A program made the translations under genes and the position numbers. Source: Rhodothermales bacterium (GTDB lineage Bacteria > Bacteroidota > Rhodothermia > Rhodothermales > JABDKH01). From it: DNA of 36,131 bases. The stretch lies in NCBI GenBank assembly GCA_013002345.1, contig JABDKH010000030.1, positions 1-36,131 on the forward strand, given 5' to 3'. Below are positions 13,110 through 21,238 of the stretch, piece after piece (position 1 is the first letter of the stretch; every line of letters starts with the position of its first letter). A model generated the notes under the pieces. That model was not told the origin of the DNA and made no database searches. It saw nothing but the letters and a program-made list of their open reading frames with translations.

Positions 13110-15965
13110 TCACGCACCCGTTCGGGATGCGACCCACTTCTGGGCTTCTGCGAGCGCTTCGGCGAGCCGATCGGGATTCTTCCCACCGGCCGTAGCCATT
13201 TCCGGTCTGCCGCCGCCACCGCCGCCCACAATTCTGGCCAGGTGTGAAACCACGTCGCCGGCCTTGATCGACGACCCCGCGATTACATCATCGGTCACAA
13301 CCGCGACGATCAAAGCCTTTTCACCAGACGCGTCGACCGCACCCAGCACGCCGACCGTACCCGAGGCGGCCCGGTCCCGCAGCTGTTGACCGGTTGACCG
13401 AAGCGATTCCATATCCGCCTCACCGACATTCGCGACGGCAACACGTATTCCCGACACGTCGATCGCATTTTTAAGCGCCTCGTCGACGATTCCGCCAAGA
13501 CTCGAACTCTTGAGCTTACCCATTTCTTTCGACAGCGACTTGTTGCGCTCAAGAAGATCGGCTACCTCCTCGTCCGTTGGCCGCTGAAGCGTCTTGAAGT
13601 GACCTCGAACGCGATCCAGCTCATCGATTCGACTCTGCATGAAGGCCAGAGCGTCCAGGCCCGCGATGGCTTCGACCCGACGGACGCCAGCCGCAATGGA
13701 TCCCTCGTGCCGAAAAGCGAACACACCGATCTCACCCGTCGCGTCGACGTGCGTGCCGCCACACAGTTCAACGGAGTAGGAAGGATCAAACGTGATAACC
13801 CGCACGCGATCTCCGTACTTCTCGCCGAACAGCGCCATCGCTCCTCGCTCGAGAGCCTCATCGATCGGAACAGACTGTTCTTCCATCTTCGCGACGTTCT
13901 CCTGGACCTTCTCGTTCACGATGCGTGCCACGGTGTCCAGCTGCTCAGGCGTAACTCGCTCGTAGTGGCTGAAGTCAAACCTGAGATGATCCGGGGCAAC
14001 GAGAGAACCCTTCTGCGCGACATGCGGACCCAGTACCTCACGCAGAGCCGCGTGCAGCAGATGAGTGGCGGTATGATGTTTCTTGATGCGCATTCGGCGC
14101 GGCGCCTCAATGCTGGCTCGTACAGGTCCGTCCAGCTCATCGGGCAGCCGGTCGACAAAATGAATGACGTCTCCGTTGGCCCGCCGTGTGTCGAGCACTC
14201 GAACCTGCTCATCTCCAACGAGAAGTATTCCCGTATCTCCAATCTGCCCGCCGCTCTCTGAATAGAACGGTGTTCGATCCAGAATCAACTGAGACACGAG
14301 TTGGCCGTCTTTACTCTCGACCGTGCGTACCCGCCTTATCACCGCGTCCGCGATGTCCTCCTCATCGTACCCTACGAATTCTGAGTGTGCGCCTTCGGAG
14401 ATCGTCCTCCAGTCTCCGTCCGAAACGTCGGACACGACGAACGTGGCGGCGGCACGCGCCCGATCCTTCTGCTGCTGCATCAGGTCGGTATAGGAATCCA
14501 TGTCGATACCGAGTCCTGTCTCGCGAGCCATGAGCCGCGTGAGATCAACGGGGAAGCCATACGTGTCATGCAGCAAAAAGGCGACCTGGCCCGGAAGGTT
14601 GCCGTGGGCAGCAGTGTCCGCAAACAACCCGGGGATCTCAGATGCATCCTCGACGTCGACATAGGCCTTCGTCAGCAGATCCATCGTCTGCCGATCGGAT
14701 GCCATCGATTTCTGAACCTCCTTCGCGTCGGCACCCTGTTCGATCGACCTGACATAGGGAATAATCTGATCGAAGAACGAGAGTCCGGTGCCGAGCGTCT
14801 CGAGGAAACTCTCCTCCTCCGCTCGTACGATGCGCTCGATGTAATCCCGGTTGCGGTCGATGTCCGGAAACGGACCCGACATCTTGTCGACGAGGGCGTC
14901 TACCAGCAAATACAGGAATGGCTTACGCAGCTCGAGCGTCTGGTAGCCGAACCGAACCGCGCGGCGCAGGATCCGTCGGATCACGTAGCCCCGACCCACG
15001 TTGCCGGGCGACACTCCGTCGGACACGGCAAACGTTATCGTCCGGACGTGATCAGATACGACGCGCATCGCCACGCGAATCCGCTCAACTTCGTCTGCAG
15101 ACCCCTTGATCCGGTCGTACGACTCGAGCCCTTCGAGCGGTGACAGCCGGGCGATCTTTTCAAGGAGCGTCTCAAACAGGTCGGTGTCGTAGTTGCTGTT
15201 CTTCGCCTGCAACACGGCGACGACTCGTTCAAAGCCCATGCCCGTATCGACGTGCTGCGCCGGAAGTGGCTGCAGCGAACCGTCAATCTGAGCATCGTAT
15301 TGAATGAAGACCAGATTCCAGATCTCCATAACCCGGGGATCGTCGGCGTTCACGAGCGACGCTCCCGAAAGCTTCTTTCGATCGGCATCGGAGCGCAGGT
15401 CGATATGGACTTCCGAGCACGGACCGCAGGGCCCCGTATCACCCATCATCCAAAAATTGTCCTTTGTCGGACAGTACAGGATGTGCTCGGGATCGATTCC
15501 CGTTTCCGATTTCCAGAAGCCGGCCGCTTCATCGTCGGGTCCCAGATCAAGATCACTATCTCCTTCATGAACGGTCACATACAGCCGCGCAGGATCCAGT
15601 CCCCAGCGATCGACGAGCAACTCCCAGGCCCAGGCGATCACCTCCTTCTTGAAGTAATCTCCGAAGCTCCAGTTGCCCAGCATCTCGAAGAACGTGTGGT
15701 GGTACGTGTCGACTCCCACTTCCTCCAGATCGTTGTGCTTGCCTGAAACGCGCAGGCACTTCTGCGTATCGGCCGCCCGCACGTACGGACGCTCTCCCGC
15801 ACCGAGAAAAACATCCTTGAATTGATTCATTCCCGCGTTCGTGAACAGCAGCGTCGGATCGTTGTGGGGCACCAGCGAATCGCTGGCCACAATCTCGTGA
15901 TCTTTCTCGCGAAAGAAGTCGAGAAACTCCTGCCGAATCTGCTCGGAAGTCTTGACGTCGGTCAT
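13110..15965 (-). CDS. alaS: Alanyl-tRNA synthetase
   Basis: AlaRS charges tRNA-Ala with alanine and edits mischarged serine and glycine, in the cytoplasm. The N-terminal class II catalytic core is clear (FLDFFREKDHEIVASDSLVP, then TNAGMNQFKDVFLG and YHHTFFEMLGNWSFGDYF). The editing domain keeps its zinc-site motifs: HHTATH at 630-635 and CGGTH near 734-738. A C-terminal C-Ala region ends with the glycine-rich GGGGGGRPEMATAGGK. At 951 residues it is longer than the E. coli enzyme (about 875). Part of the extra length is a ~45-residue insertion around 395-440, before HDTYGFPVDLT. It lies between the glycosylase gene and GGGP synthase, all reverse. Confidence 0.97.
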   Translation of the reverse strand: MTDVKTSEQIRQEFLDFFREKDHEIVASDSLVPHNDPTLLFTNAGMNQFKDVFLGAGERPYVRAADTQKCLRVSGKHNDLEEVGVDTYHHTFFEMLGNWSFGDYFKKEVIAWAWELLVDRWGLDPARLYVTVHEGDSDLDLGPDDEAAGFWKSETGIDPEHILYCPTKDNFWMMGDTGPCGPCSEVHIDLRSDADRKKLSGASLVNADDPRVMEIWNLVFIQYDAQIDGSLQPLPAQHVDTGMGFERVVAVLQAKNSNYDTDLFETLLEKIARLSPLEGLESYDRIKGSADEVERIRVAMRVVSDHVRTITFAVSDGVSPGNVGRGYVIRRILRRAVRFGYQTLELRKPFLYLLVDALVDKMSGPFPDIDRNRDYIERIVRAEEESFLETLGTGLSFFDQIIPYVRSIEQGADAKEVQKSMASDRQTMDLLTKAYVDVEDASEIPGLFADTAAHGNLPGQVAFLLHDTYGFPVDLTRLMARETGLGIDMDSYTDLMQQQKDRARAAATFVVSDVSDGDWRTISEGAHSEFVGYDEEDIADAVIRRVRTVESKDGQLVSQLILDRTPFYSESGGQIGDTGILLVGDEQVRVLDTRRANGDVIHFVDRLPDELDGPVRASIEAPRRMRIKKHHTATHLLHAALREVLGPHVAQKGSLVAPDHLRFDFSHYERVTPEQLDTVARIVNEKVQENVAKMEEQSVPIDEALERGAMALFGEKYGDRVRVITFDPSYSVELCGGTHVDATGEIGVFAFRHEGSIAAGVRRVEAIAGLDALAFMQSRIDELDRVRGHFKTLQRPTDEEVADLLERNKSLSKEMGKLKSSSLGGIVDEALKNAIDVSGIRVAVANVGEADMESLRSTGQQLRDRAASGTVGVLGAVDASGEKALIVAVVTDDVIAGSSIKAGDVVSHLARIVGGGGGGRPEMATAGGKNPDRLAEALAEAQKWVASRTGA

Positions 15966-16112: not shown

Positions 16113-16778
16113 CTATTGTCGCACACTTCTTCGAGTCTTTCTTCGTCTTTCCGCCGCGATATCACTCGGGACCCCCGGCGACACGAACGGATTCCCTTCG
16201 CAGTAAAACCTCCACTGCCGATCCACCGCACGCGTGATCCCGATTCTGGACGATGTAGCGATACGATGATCCGGCATCTCAGGCGGCTCCGCGAAATACA
16301 ACGGCGGCCGCAACAAAGAACTTCGGTGAAACCGATTGTCGATCTCGAGCGCCTGAGTCAATTTCCCCGGTCCATTTGTCAAGTCGACGGTCCGGCGAGC
16401 CGCCGCACGCCTGTCCCACATCGAGGATTCGCCATCCACAGGTTCGATCGCCCGGATGAGAACACAACCCGCTACCCCCTCGCGCTCCGTCAATACGTTC
16501 AGCATCCAGTACATCCCGTAAATGAGGTACACATACGCGTAACCTGGCTTGCCGAAGAGATCGTACCCCCGACCTGTCGGCTTGACGAGCCCCGTCGGTC
16601 CATCGACGATGCCCCAGGCATGAAAGGCCGGATCCTCATGCGTGTACGCCTCCGTTTCGACGATCCGGCCCACCATCCGCCTGTCGGCAACCCCCTCTCG
16701 CACGAGATAACGACCCAGCAGGTCGCGGGCGACTGCAAGCGTCGATCGGTCAAAAAAGTCTGCCCCCAGTTTTTTCAT
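16113..16778 (-). CDS. DNA-3-methyladenine glycosylase (AAG/MPG family)
   Basis: This encodes a 221-residue base-excision enzyme that removes alkylated purines such as 3-methyladenine. GRIVETEAY carries the catalytic glutamate, and YVYLIYGMYWMLNV matches the DNA-intercalating tyrosine region. GPGKLTQALEI and SSRIGITRAVD complete the family signature. The usual DPASHA is DPAFHA here. I chose the ATG at 16778 (MKKLGADFF), where family similarity begins; an in-frame ATG at 16859 would add 27 unrelated residues. It lies 147 bases upstream of alaS on the same strand and is divergent from the SHGD-repeat gene. Confidence 0.92.
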   Translation of the reverse strand: MKKLGADFFDRSTLAVARDLLGRYLVREGVADRRMVGRIVETEAYTHEDPAFHAWGIVDGPTGLVKPTGRGYDLFGKPGYAYVYLIYGMYWMLNVLTEREGVAGCVLIRAIEPVDGESSMWDRRAAARRTVDLTNGPGKLTQALEIDNRFHRSSLLRPPLYFAEPPEMPDHRIATSSRIGITRAVDRQWRFYCEGNPFVSPGVPSDIAAERRRKTRRSVRQ

Positions 16779-16861
16779 CGGGTCCTCGGCGCAACCTCGA
16801 ACGACTGGCTCCGTAGCGCGACTTGTCTCGTTGCCATTCTTATGATCATCCGGCTCCACCC

Positions 16862-17863
16862 ATGAAAACGACTATCACCGCCGTACTGCTCTGCCTCCTC
16901 GCAGCTTTGGGACTTGTCAACGTCGGTCAGAGCATCAAGGATAACTTCTTCGCCACTCATCATGACGCGAGTCAACAGTATACGGTTCGCGTTGCATCGC
17001 ACGGATCTGCAGAAGAGGTGATGATAGACGAGCGGTTCAAAGTCAGCCCGGGAGGCACTCTGGAAGTTGGGCTCTCCCACGCTGACGTCGAGATCACGAC
17101 CTCGGATGCAAACGAAGCTCACGTCCGCGTGCTGCTGTCCGGTAGCGACATGACGAAGGCGCGAGAGTTCTTCGAGTCCCGCAACTTTGAGGTTCGTCAG
17201 GACGGCGACCGCATTGTCGTGAAGACGAATCCAAAGAAACGGAACTGGGACTGGTCACGGAACGGGCGCGCAGAAATCGAGGTGGAGATCAGCATCCCTG
17301 CTCGCTTCAATGCAGAGCTGGCCATGTCGCATGGCGATCTGGAGATGGATGATCTTGAGGGCAATCTGAGCCTCATGAATTCGCATGGAGACGCCGAGAT
17401 TTCGTCCGTTGACGGTTCCTTCGCTGACTTCAAGCTGTCGCACGGGGATGTGGAGATCGGGATGGTAAAGGCGAACCGAGTCAAGCTTCGTAACTCCCAC
17501 GGAGACCTGGAGGTCGATCAAGTATCCGCCAAAGAGATCACGGCCATGTCGTCCCACGGTGACATAAGTCTGGGAATAAAGGAAGCCGGTGCGCTCGACA
17601 TTTCGAACTCTCATGGCGAAATCGACCTGTCCATGAGTTCCGCAGTGGGCGGATCGATCAGCAACAGCCACGGCGACATTGAGATTTCGACATACGACAA
17701 CGCTGCGATGACGCTAGACTTCCGGGGAAGCCACGTCAGCATCGACGAGTCGTTGTCCTTCCGTGGTGACGCTGCTTCGGACAAGGCACGGGGCGACATC
17801 AACGGTGGCGGTCCGCTGTTGAAGGCCCGTACCTCGCACGGATCGATCGAGATCGGATCGTAG
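16862..17863 (+). CDS. DUF4097-type protein with regular SHGD repeats
   Basis: This encodes a 333-residue exported or membrane-anchored protein. Residues 5-22 are a hydrophobic signal or anchor. From residue 46 on, a Ser-His pair recurs, mostly as SHGD: 46, 72, 156, 174, 193, 212, 231, 250, 269, 290 and 325. From 156 to 269 the step is 18 and then exactly 19 residues each time, each followed by an alternating hydrophobic strand such as LEMDDLEG or VEIGMVKA. This is the beta-strand repeat of DUF4097 adhesin-like proteins, which should form a right-handed solenoid. The early part (70-150) has a less regular beta domain. The ATG at 16862 starts the signal; an in-frame upstream ATG (16823) is unlikely. 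Function is unknown. It stands alone between divergent and convergent neighbours. Confidence 0.85.
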   Translation: MKTTITAVLLCLLAALGLVNVGQSIKDNFFATHHDASQQYTVRVASHGSAEEVMIDERFKVSPGGTLEVGLSHADVEITTSDANEAHVRVLLSGSDMTKAREFFESRNFEVRQDGDRIVVKTNPKKRNWDWSRNGRAEIEVEISIPARFNAELAMSHGDLEMDDLEGNLSLMNSHGDAEISSVDGSFADFKLSHGDVEIGMVKANRVKLRNSHGDLEVDQVSAKEITAMSSHGDISLGIKEAGALDISNSHGEIDLSMSSAVGGSISNSHGDIEISTYDNAAMTLDFRGSHVSIDESLSFRGDAASDKARGDINGGGPLLKARTSHGSIEIGS

Positions 17864-17890: not shown

Positions 17891-19081
17891 CTAGATGGTT
17901 TCGACCGTCACTGCGGTTCCGCCACCGGTACCGTGGCATAGCGCCGCGACGCCGCGGCCTCCATTGCCGTCCCGCAAGGCATGGATCAGGGTGACGATAA
18001 TTCGCGCTCCCGATGCACCGATTGGATGACCCAGCGCTACCGCGCCGCCTCGTACGTTCAGCTTCTCGAACGGGACATCCAGCATGCGATGGAAGAGGAC
18101 GCTGTTGAGCGCGAACGCCTCGTTGTTCTCGAAGAGATCGATATCACTGATCTTCAAGTCAAGCATTGACAGCATGCGCTTCACGGCCGGCACCGGGGCT
18201 TCCGGAAAGCGGTATGGCTCCCCTGCTGCCCACGACCCTCGCAGGAGTTTCGCAATCGGTTTGAGCCCGTGCTTCTCGACGGCTTCGGCACTGGCTAGAA
18301 GAATTGCTGCCGCACCATCACTTATCTGACTGCTGTTGCCGGCCGTAAGCACCCCTTCCTTCGAGAACGCCGGTCGCAACTTTGCCAACGAATCGGTCGT
18401 GGTGTCGGCACGGATTCCCTCGTCCATCGTAAGCGTCTTCGTGTCACGCCTCTCACGGTATTCGATAGGGACAATCTCGGTCTCAAACTTACCGCCCTGC
18501 GTCGCCTCGTTCGCCCTCTTGTGCGACTCTGCCGCGACCGCGTCGATCGCTTCCCGCTCGATGCCCAACTCGGCCGCAAGCTGTTCTGTCTGACTGCCCA
18601 TCGCGTCCCCGGTGAACGGATCGGATAGGCCGTCCCTCTCCAGGATGTCTACGAGGGTCGCAGGCTTACCAGCAAGATACTTGTAGCCCCAGCGCGCCCT
18701 CGACGTCAGGTAGAACCCTGCGCCCGACATCGACTCCGTGCCACCTGCGAGAACCATGTCGGCCTCTCCTGCACGAATGAGTGTCGCGGAGTTCATCACG
18801 GCCATCATGCCGGAGGAACACACCATGTCTACGGCGTAGCCGTCAACGTCTTTCGGAATGCCCGCCTGGATGGCGGCCTGCCGCGGAACAAGCTGCCCTC
18901 GGCCGGCCCGCAAGACGTTGCCAAATATGTACAGGTCGAGGTGCTTGCCATCGACGCCGCCACGATCCAGCGCGGCACTCATCACATGCGCCCCCATGTC
19001 CACGGGAGAGTGATCCGCCAGCGCTCCGCCAAAACGTCCGATCGGCGTTCTTACGGCCGAAACAATGTATACGTCTTTCAT
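17891..19081 (-). CDS. Acetyl-CoA acetyltransferase (thiolase)
   Basis: This encodes a 396-residue thiolase, which condenses or cleaves acyl-CoA and acetyl-CoA in the cytoplasm. The nucleophile is C88 in DMVCSSGM, the GHPIGASGAR motif gives H352, and the second cysteine is C382 in ALCHGTGGG. The last motif is looser than the usual CIGGGMG. NNEAFAL is also present. The start at 19081 is preceded by AGGAAGGAG (19082-19090) and matches the family's first residues MKDVYIVSAVRTPIG; an ATG at 19120 would add 13 residues. It lies 57 bases after the DUF255 gene on the same strand. Sequence alone does not separate a biosynthetic from a degradative role, and no other beta-oxidation gene is near. Confidence 0.93.
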   Translation of the reverse strand: MKDVYIVSAVRTPIGRFGGALADHSPVDMGAHVMSAALDRGGVDGKHLDLYIFGNVLRAGRGQLVPRQAAIQAGIPKDVDGYAVDMVCSSGMMAVMNSATLIRAGEADMVLAGGTESMSGAGFYLTSRARWGYKYLAGKPATLVDILERDGLSDPFTGDAMGSQTEQLAAELGIEREAIDAVAAESHKRANEATQGGKFETEIVPIEYRERRDTKTLTMDEGIRADTTTDSLAKLRPAFSKEGVLTAGNSSQISDGAAAILLASAEAVEKHGLKPIAKLLRGSWAAGEPYRFPEAPVPAVKRMLSMLDLKISDIDLFENNEAFALNSVLFHRMLDVPFEKLNVRGGAVALGHPIGASGARIIVTLIHALRDGNGGRGVAALCHGTGGGTAVTVETI

Positions 19082-19138
19082 CTCCTTCCTGCCCTCCACG
19101 ACATTTGCTTCATGCTTCAAATCTCGAGACTAAGTTCA

Positions 19139-21238
19139 TCAACCATCCGGAGCAACACTTCGTTTCGGCTTGATCAAGTCCTCACGTTGCGCCTGCAGCT
19201 CCGCCACCATCTCCGCCGCGGACGCGGATGGTGCCGCGCAGACATGATCCCGGCACACGTATGCCAGAGCACCCGCCGGAGCGCTCTGAAAGGACCCCGC
19301 AAAGGGAGCAATCCGTTGCAGGTCATCCCAATCAGTTCCCACGCACAGACTGACTGTGTTGGGCAGGTAGCGCCGGCGCAGTTCTCCTATCATCTCTCGA
19401 ACGTCAGGAGACTCTGCAGATCCGGCCACGACCACCTCTGTGGCCCCGCCTTCGATGAACTCCAGACCGATCAACATGCCGGCGTAACCGGAAGGATAGC
19501 GACGTACACGCGGCGCAACCGCCGCAAGTAATCGGGCGGCAAACTCCTCAAAACGGGCGTCGGCAGTTAATCTCGACAGGCGGAGAAAGCACAGAAGGGC
19601 AATCGCATTGCCAGACGGTAATGCACCGTCGTCGAGATCCTTCAACCGGGCGACGAGCTCTTCCCCGTCCACCGGCGTCATGAAGAACCCGCTGTTCGTG
19701 TCATCCCAGAATCGCTCGATCATCTGTTCCGCGAGCGATATGGCCGAGCCAAGCGGACCCGGCTCATACGTTGCCTGGTAGAGTTCGATCAAGCCCCAGA
19801 TCATACAGGCGTAGTCCGTCAAGTGGCCATCGATGCCCGCCACGCCGTCGCGATATCGATGCTGCAGGTGGCCTCGATCGTCGTAGAGCGTATCCGACAC
19901 AAACGATGCCGCCCGTTTCGCCGCGACCACGTACCGGTCGTCGCCGACTGCAGACCCGAGCTTCGACAGCGCTGCGATCATGAGGCCGTTCCAGTCCGTC
20001 AGAACCTTGTCGTCGAGGAGGGGCCGTTCTCGTTGCTCACGGTGCGCGAACAGCAATGCTCTCGCCGCGTCGAGACGATCGGCTCGGTCTGCGCCGTCTC
20101 CCGACTCGTCCAACGAACCGTGCAAGACATTCTCTCCTGTCAACTCACGAGTTGCCTCGTCCAGGAAATTACCGGCCGGCTCCAGTCCGTACGTTTCAAT
20201 AACGAGGTCTGCCAGATCGGCGGACAGAACGTCAACGACTTCGTCGACCGTCCATACATAGAATTTCCCTTCCACCCCCTCGCTGTCGGCATCTTCGGCC
20301 GAGTAGAATCCACCGGCGGGCGCTGTCATATCTCTCAGAACGTAGTCTGCCACCTCTCGTGCGACGTCGGCGAAAAAGTGGTCACCGGTGGCCAGGTAGG
20401 CTTCCGTATACGCCATGATGTGAAGCGCCTGGTCGTACAGCATTTTCTCGAAATGCGGCAGCCTCCACTCTCCGTCTGTGGAGTAGCGATGGAATCCGAA
20501 TCCGATTTGATCGAAGATGCCTCCGCTCCTCATGGACCGTAGCGTATGCGCAACCATCTCCAGTGCACGTGCGTCGCCCGTGCGGTGTGCATACCTCAGC
20601 AGAAAGAGGAGATTGTGCGGAGCCGGAAATTTTGGCGATGCGCCGAATCCACCATGCTCCGAATCGTACCGTTCTGCGAATTGCTCGAACGCCAGCTTGA
20701 GCCACGCGGAATCCAGCGTGCGTGGACCAGTTACGGACTCGTCGATACTTCGCAGCGCAGATGTGATCTGGCCCGCCGACTCTTCAACACGCTCTCGCTC
20801 GTCGCGCCACAGCGCGCTGATGCGCGGCAGCAATTCGACCATCCCTACCCGACCGAAGCGGCTGCTCTTCGGGATATAGGTGGCGACAAAGAACGGCTTG
20901 CGGGACGGCGTCATGATGACGGTCAAAGGCCAACCGCACGATCCTCCCATGAGCTGACACACGGTCATGTACACCTGGTCAATATCCGGCCGCTCCTCTC
21001 GATCCACCTTGATGGATATGAAGCTATCGTTCAGCAGCGACGCAACGGCTTCGTCTTCGAACGACTCGTGCTCCATGACGTGGCACCAGTGACAGGTAGC
21101 GTAGCCGATCGACAGGAATACGGGCTGGTCCAGATCTCGTGCGCGCTGAAACGCCTCCTCCGACCACGGATACCAGTCCACCGGATTGTTACGATGCTGC
21201 AGCAGGTACGGGCTCGTCTCCTCTCCCAGTCGATTCAT
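19139..21238 (-). CDS. DUF255 thioredoxin-fold protein (YyaL/SSP411 family)
   Basis: This encodes a 699-residue protein. The N-terminus is a thioredoxin-like domain: [20 protein letters not shown], then [18 protein letters not shown] with the CxxC pair C49/C52, then [14 protein letters not shown] and [10 protein letters not shown]. The rest (about 190-690) is an alpha/alpha barrel of the N-acylglucosamine 2-epimerase/cellobiose type, including [23 protein letters not shown] and [16 protein letters not shown]. No signal peptide is visible. The family is very widespread, up to mammals (SPATA20), yet its reaction is unknown. It lies 46 bases after the glycerate kinase gene and 57 bases before the thiolase, so a three-gene transcript is likely. 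Confidence 0.93.

Follow-up and report, generated by a model that had tools for sequence, protein, structure and literature searches.

A uniform histidine column at the corners of a predicted Toastrack β-helix from Rhodothermales, and whole-column differences among its relatives

The window analysed here, a stretch of 36,131 nucleotides from a Rhodothermales bacterium (contig JABDKH010000030.1 of assembly GCA_013002345.1), carries on its forward strand, at 16862..17863, a gene that opens with an ATG at 16862 and encodes a protein of 333 residues. The initial annotation had placed this protein in the DUF4097 family, an assignment borne out by the Pfam profile for DUF4097/Toastrack (PF13349), which matches residues 67-277 with 69.8 bits at a cut-off of 22.9. 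The four flanking genes all lie on the reverse strand. Upstream are alaS, encoding alanyl-tRNA synthetase (13110..15965; PF01411), and an mpg ORF for a 3-methyladenine (methylpurine) DNA glycosylase (16113..16859; PF02245), while downstream a convergent thiolase gene (17891..19120; PF00108/PF02803) is followed by one for a thioredoxin-like DUF255 protein (19139..21238; PF03190). The order alaS-mpg-Toastrack-thiolase-DUF255 is conserved. The likely start of mpg (ATG at 16778, reverse strand) leaves a gap of 83 bp before the Toastrack gene (16779..16861), presumed to contain divergent promoters; no sigma-70-like site was found in this gap, but such a scan says little for this group. Because the gene diverges from mpg and converges with the thiolase gene, its position suggests that it is probably transcribed alone. 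The locus offers no operon partner, the neighbours being housekeeping genes on the opposite strand, and metal-related genes were likewise absent from among them. PspA, PspC, LiaI-LiaF-TM or regulator genes do not adjoin the gene either; alaS, mpg, thiolase and DUF255 are its neighbours over the order.

The most conspicuous feature of the protein is a recurrent Ser-His pair, found at residues 46, 72, 156, 174, 193, 212, 231, 250, 269, 290 and 325. Shuffling the residues 20,000 times gave 1.7 such pairs on average and never more than 8, against eleven in the protein. Between 156 and 269 the pairs follow one another in steps of 18, 19, 19, 19, 19 and 19 residues, exactly as first reported. The tandem array comprises seven motifs, all forward: SHGD at 156-159 (17327..17338), 174-177 (17381..17392), 193-196 (17438..17449), 212-215 (17495..17506) and 231-234 (17552..17563), SHGE at 250-253 (17609..17620), and SHGD again at 269-272 (17666..17677). 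Each is supported by sequence, structural model and alignment, and the second to fifth also by the DNA form of SHGD-x15-SHGD, which occurs three times in the window and in none of 100 shuffles. Since adjacent 57-bp coils share only 40-46% of their DNA sequence and the motif copies use four codons for Ser, two for His and four for Gly, the ladder is an old pattern held at the protein level, not a recent DNA repeat.

The four further copies turned out to be of two kinds. Those at 72 and 325 belong to the conserved ladder: SHAD 72-75 (17075..17086) contributes His73, 84 residues upstream of the tandem array, and SHGS 325-328 (17834..17845) contributes His326, following a conserved NGGG cap motif. 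The other two are off the ladder and have to be set aside. SHGS at 46 falls into a low-confidence linker (residues 30-48; 16949..17005, forward) that remains unaligned in relatives, and at SHVS 290-293 (17729..17740, forward) position 291 is unconserved and mostly Asp, Glu, Arg or Lys in relatives.

AlphaFold2, working from a shallow alignment of 10 rows and liable to model repeat proteins over-regularly, predicts a β-helix with a pLDDT of about 95, preceded by a poorly predicted N-terminal helix and linker (pLDDT below 50 for residues 20-48). The four-residue corners between strands coincide in this model with the motifs at 193-196, 212-215, 231-234 and 250-253, and the other motifs lie at strand ends. 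The model of a relative with SDGD motifs is built alike, its four-residue corners falling on SDGD. Among PDB structures, Foldseek ranks 4QRK, 3PET, 3LYC, 4OPW, 3JX8 and 3LJY as the best fold matches, with E-values of 1e-7 for 4QRK, at a TM-score of only 0.33, and 3e-6 for 4OPW (target TM-score 0.64). Both of these are given as example structures in the paper that defines the Toastrack domain (PMC11237479). The protein is thus modelled as a single-stranded, right-handed β-helix of Toastrack fold, its handedness assumed from the family, and because one coil takes 19 residues, the histidines should stack in a single line along one edge of the solenoid. The solenoid with 19 residues per turn proposed in the initial annotation therefore stands as a prediction, each coil bearing the motif at one of its corners; the common direction of the side chains, also proposed there, is something we infer from the arguments below.

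A sequence-profile search of the PDB gave no match, and a relative with a Gly column returned only a teneurin, at an E-value of 0.41. A phmmer search linked residues 37-139 (window 16970-17278) to human PAD2, a protein-arginine deiminase, at an E-value of 5e-5; we judged this probably due to chance, as a profile of 12 homologues did not retrieve PAD2.

Relatives of the protein are present in 53 of 60 related genomes, although a single-protein scan of the genome contigs found none. A search of 84,980 species genomes for SHGD-x15-SHGD in its exact DNA form, which captures TCN serines only, gave 24 stretches. Toastrack genes account for eight, and these come from Rhodothermales, unclassified Bacteroidetes or unclassified bacterial MAGs; the remainder are low-complexity or unrelated frames. 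Two of the loci, L048 and L042, coincide with gene pairs of relatives of the window's genome, namely those of G004 (same family) and G026 (same order). Within 248 genomes of the phylum, the pattern is confined to the window's own order.

Eighteen relatives carry a His column as well (H-type). At the seven core ladder positions of these proteins, His fills 126 of 126 alignment cells, and outside the array it occupies position 73 in 18/18 and position 326 in 16/18 of them, while corresponding coils of relatives are elsewhere only about 30% identical. The initial annotation had regarded Ser, His, Gly and Asp/Glu as jointly kept. This holds for His, which is conserved even better than the turn Gly of the same motif, but not for the residue before it, which may be Ser, Ala, Thr, Gln or Arg; the Gly gives way to Ala or Ser in two coils, and the Asp is nearly constant. 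Because Ser is not kept, and Gly and Asp are shared by the family at large, the alignment indicates that the H-type subgroup is marked by His alone and not by SHGD as a whole. The residue preceding His itself tends towards uniformity within a protein, forming a second, weaker column, with AHGD in most coils of L004 and L014-L023 and THGD in L012 and L017.

Beyond the H-type, the column is filled by a different residue, each protein again keeping mostly to one: Asp (SDGD), Ser (GSGD, SSGD), Ala (GAGN, EAGD), Gly (SGGD) or Tyr (SYGD). Free variation of the SHGD positions, which the initial annotation had named as an outcome in homologues that would refute its proposal, is thus not found at the ladder column, but neither is His universal, as other relatives have Asp, Ser or Tyr throughout. 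Over 76 proteins, the commonest residue takes up 0.58 of the motif positions, a figure that counts off-register turns too and so understates the uniformity, against 0.30 expected and at most 0.33 in 5,000 shuffles. The ladder residue of the respective protein recurs at position 73 in 30 of 31 homologues and at position 326 in 25 of 30, values reached in 0 of 100,000 shuffles, a procedure which, like the p-values given here, ignores the relatedness of the proteins. As these two positions lie outside the array and yet follow the ladder type, copying of tandem coils is an unlikely source of the column. Comparison of H-type with D-type (SDGD) proteins points the same way: coils are more similar to the same coil of the other type than to other coils (identities of 0.226 and 0.153, the best of 720 permutations, in a comparison favoured by the alignment itself), and since each coil remains recognisable whichever residue fills the ladder, recent copying is not what made the column uniform.

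Where the column points can be approached through the residues around it. Hydrophobic positions lie at -6, -4, +3, +5, +8 and partly -2 relative to His, and the ladder residue itself is polar or small, with the single Tyr-type protein as an exception. The core is no smaller where the ladder residue is bulky (summed volumes of 861 with His and 822 with Gly), and the charge of the outward neighbours tracks the ladder, with acids at +4 in H-type and Arg at -3 in D-type proteins (jointly p ~8e-6, uncorrected for relatedness). Long columns of Asp, moreover, would be very unfavourable in the interior of the coil. Because of the unshrunk core, the type-dependent flanking charges and the cost of burying Asp columns, the sequences favour an exposed, ordered column.

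A hydrophobic helix at the N-terminus (residues 3-29; 16868..16948, forward), seen in hydropathy and as a low-confidence helix in the model, may be a signal anchor or a signal peptide; it is kept in close relatives, and others have ordinary-looking signal peptides instead. Based on this helix and on the signal-peptide-like N-termini of relatives, the protein is probably exported, with or without a membrane anchor. In several relatives (L006, L007 and L012), low-complexity stretches of alternating Asp and Phe (DFDFDFDF) separate the N-terminal helix from the domain.

Taken at face value, these features describe an exported, probably membrane-anchored Toastrack β-helix in which S-H-G-D would occupy one corner of each coil of about 19 residues, stacking about nine histidines (73, 157, 175, 194, 213, 232, 251, 270 and 326) on one edge, with acidic residues lined up beside them at +2 and frequently at +4 as well. 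We propose that this putative ridge is an exposed, periodic and ordered binding face under strong purifying selection, a reading to which we assign a probability of about 0.5. Its chemistry would be fixed per lineage, His in the proteins described here and Asp, Ser or Tyr elsewhere, as is expected if the whole ridge contacts one extended or repeated partner in the envelope; candidates are a polymer of the envelope, a second solenoid or bound cations arranged in a line. There is good support for selection on the ridge, whereas we infer its outward direction, the export of the protein, binding and a role in the envelope.

How the different columns came to be distributed is a separate matter. The H-, D-, S- and Y-type genes all occupy the alaS locus, depending on the species, though the full set of neighbours is not visible on all contigs. 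On a tree that was built without the ladder columns and whose deeper branches are weakly supported, the ladder types require 6 changes, compared with about 20 for shuffled labels. S-type proteins form one clade (100/99), D-type and H-type proteins fall mostly into separate parts, and the lone Y-type protein, an incomplete sequence, nests with the H-type (91/87). It is conceivable that an old tandem pair of D- and H-type genes existed at the alaS locus and that different copies were lost in different species, so that the H/D difference would be one between paralogues. We consider the odds of this to be even. The separation of the two types in the tree fits it, and differential loss is a live explanation for the H/D scatter because one genome still keeps both copies side by side (L096 4835-5950 and 5963-7033). 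It explains, however, why H and D are scattered over the species and does not explain how an entire column came to differ, and the position of the Y-type protein within the H-type would require at least one real switch. Such hidden paralogy concerns the origin of the H/D difference and is compatible with a binding ridge.

Two tandem Toastrack-like genes are in fact common at the alaS locus (L096, L107, L112, L116, L126). Besides the D- and H-type genes of G004, which are 12 bp apart, we found two S-type genes in G047, and a D-type gene together with a ladder-less one in G033, G024 and probably G012, on whose contig no alaS was seen. Next to a D-type gene, L126 7033-9090 encodes a Toastrack-like protein of 686 residues in which SDG and ING turns alternate, as if two columns ran along one solenoid.

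The binding-ridge reading has to be weighed against the possibility that the column is a structural ladder only, in which identical side chains stack at the corners and stabilise the coil without any ligand. Stacking ladders are well known in β-helices, and a structural role would suit the corner position, the strict periodicity and the fact that relatives sharing the locus may differ in the residue. Yet uniformity is not a property of every such protein. The commonest residue reaches a mean of 0.41 in six actinobacterial DUF4097 proteins, which are distant and of uncertain coil register, versus 0.82 in the Bacteroidota set, and a distant Toastrack-like paralogue from the same genome as the window (contig C41; L105 3232-4215) has mixed turns such as QHGDV, ANGDV and VAGNI. 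Because of these mixed columns, the fold alone does not appear to impose uniformity, and proteins of this fold class can probably do without a single repeated residue; the notion that a uniform ladder is obligatory for any DUF4097 protein was rejected on the same grounds. A second distant Toastrack-like paralogue in this genome (contig C75; L104 523-1653) has a mostly Ala column (GAGN). Further points against a structural ladder are that His is better conserved than the Gly of its own turn, and that 8-11 stacked Asp residues are hard to picture as self-stabilising, although the Arg at -3 may offset their charge. We regard a purely structural role as unlikely, while taking it seriously.

The best-known counterparts are the Asn ladders of right-handed β-helices, for example in pectate lyase, where Asn lies inside the coil. 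Here, too, a single residue type is stacked at the same corner, through seven consecutive coils and at positions 73 and 326; unlike the Asn ladders, however, this column is charged or polar, probably faces outwards, is longer (about nine residues) and changes its type between relatives.

A more specific proposal is that the His column, together with Asp at +2 and an acid at +4, serves to chelate ions of transition metals or has its titration point near pH 6, making the protein a metal or pH buffer or sensor of the envelope. One His and two acids per coil in a 19-residue register are a plausible set of ligands, and the unbroken occupancy of the core columns by His would fit this role, but the Asp at +2 is found family-wide, unpaired with His, the locus lacks metal-related neighbours, and the Ser and Tyr columns found at this locus would be unsuited to the purpose. 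On account of the latter we prefer another reading to metal binding, which we consider doubtful; as the explanations are not mutually exclusive, it would nevertheless be compatible with a binding ridge. More generally, the syntenic Ser and Tyr columns argue against a single conserved ligand chemistry. Finally, the constant length of the tandem coils and the lineage-dependent ladder type might recall repeat homogenisation, in which unequal crossing-over or gene conversion spreads one coil and uniformity arises without selection, but this is very improbable and in its simple form was rejected, given the low DNA identity of adjacent coils, the ladder-type match of the outlying positions 73 and 326, and the fact that coils within the protein are only about 17% identical beyond the motif, whereas corresponding coils from different species are more alike.

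If the column is indeed a binding ridge, a further step can be tentatively considered, namely that the Toastracks of this order carry a linear binding ridge that evolution can re-set, exchanging the whole column and its flanking charges to suit a different periodic partner, for instance a polymer of the envelope, a second solenoid or metal ions in a row; the corner side chain would be kept the same on every coil, even at the positions beyond the repeat array. We think the odds are against this stronger version, although it is possible. The D-type (SDGD), S-type (GSGD) and Y-type (SYGD) proteins share the alaS locus, the domain, the coil length and the corner position with the protein described here, and differ from it in having another residue throughout the column and, for the D-type, in having Arg at -3, the H-type having acids at +4.

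With the Toastrack domain as presented in PMC11237479 (PF13349; 4QRK, 4OPW), the protein has in common the profile match, the β-helix and the placement of the domain after a single N-terminal hydrophobic segment. What sets it apart from that account are the uniform His column, a probably extracytoplasmic location, where that paper argues for an intracellular domain, and the lack of PSP, Lia or regulator neighbours; gene links to PSP/Lia systems are described there as frequent in the family, not as obligatory. LiaG and LiaX of Bacillota are distant Toastrack relatives and envelope-stress proteins, but the protein scores far below the respective cut-offs (47.4 bits against 285 for LiaG, NF049997; 21.1 bits against 350 for LiaX, NF038025), so that it is not a member of either group, and no LiaFSR-like genes lie beside it. 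The C-terminal domain of LiaX is regulatory (PMC11601895), and in Listeria the susceptibility to bacteriocins is influenced by a PspC/Toastrack protein (PMC12791056). By title and abstract, we found no relevant paper on a histidine ladder in β-helices, and the accessible portions of the DUF4097 literature yielded no description of such a ladder; a paper on knotted solenoids makes no mention of the DUF4097/Toastrack family. While the family is known, it is unusual to see so strict a His column, and a whole column that differs between relatives at one locus.

The DUF4097/Toastrack family, widespread in bacteria, has been proposed to serve as a platform for protein interactions, and we came across no description of its ligands or contact surfaces. 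The likely working surface is marked by the column, strictly His in one clade and just as strictly Asp or Ser in others, despite relatives in which it is mixed. It also offers a clean case for the question of how matching substitutions arise at 8-11 positions in a single protein while hardly any intermediates survive.
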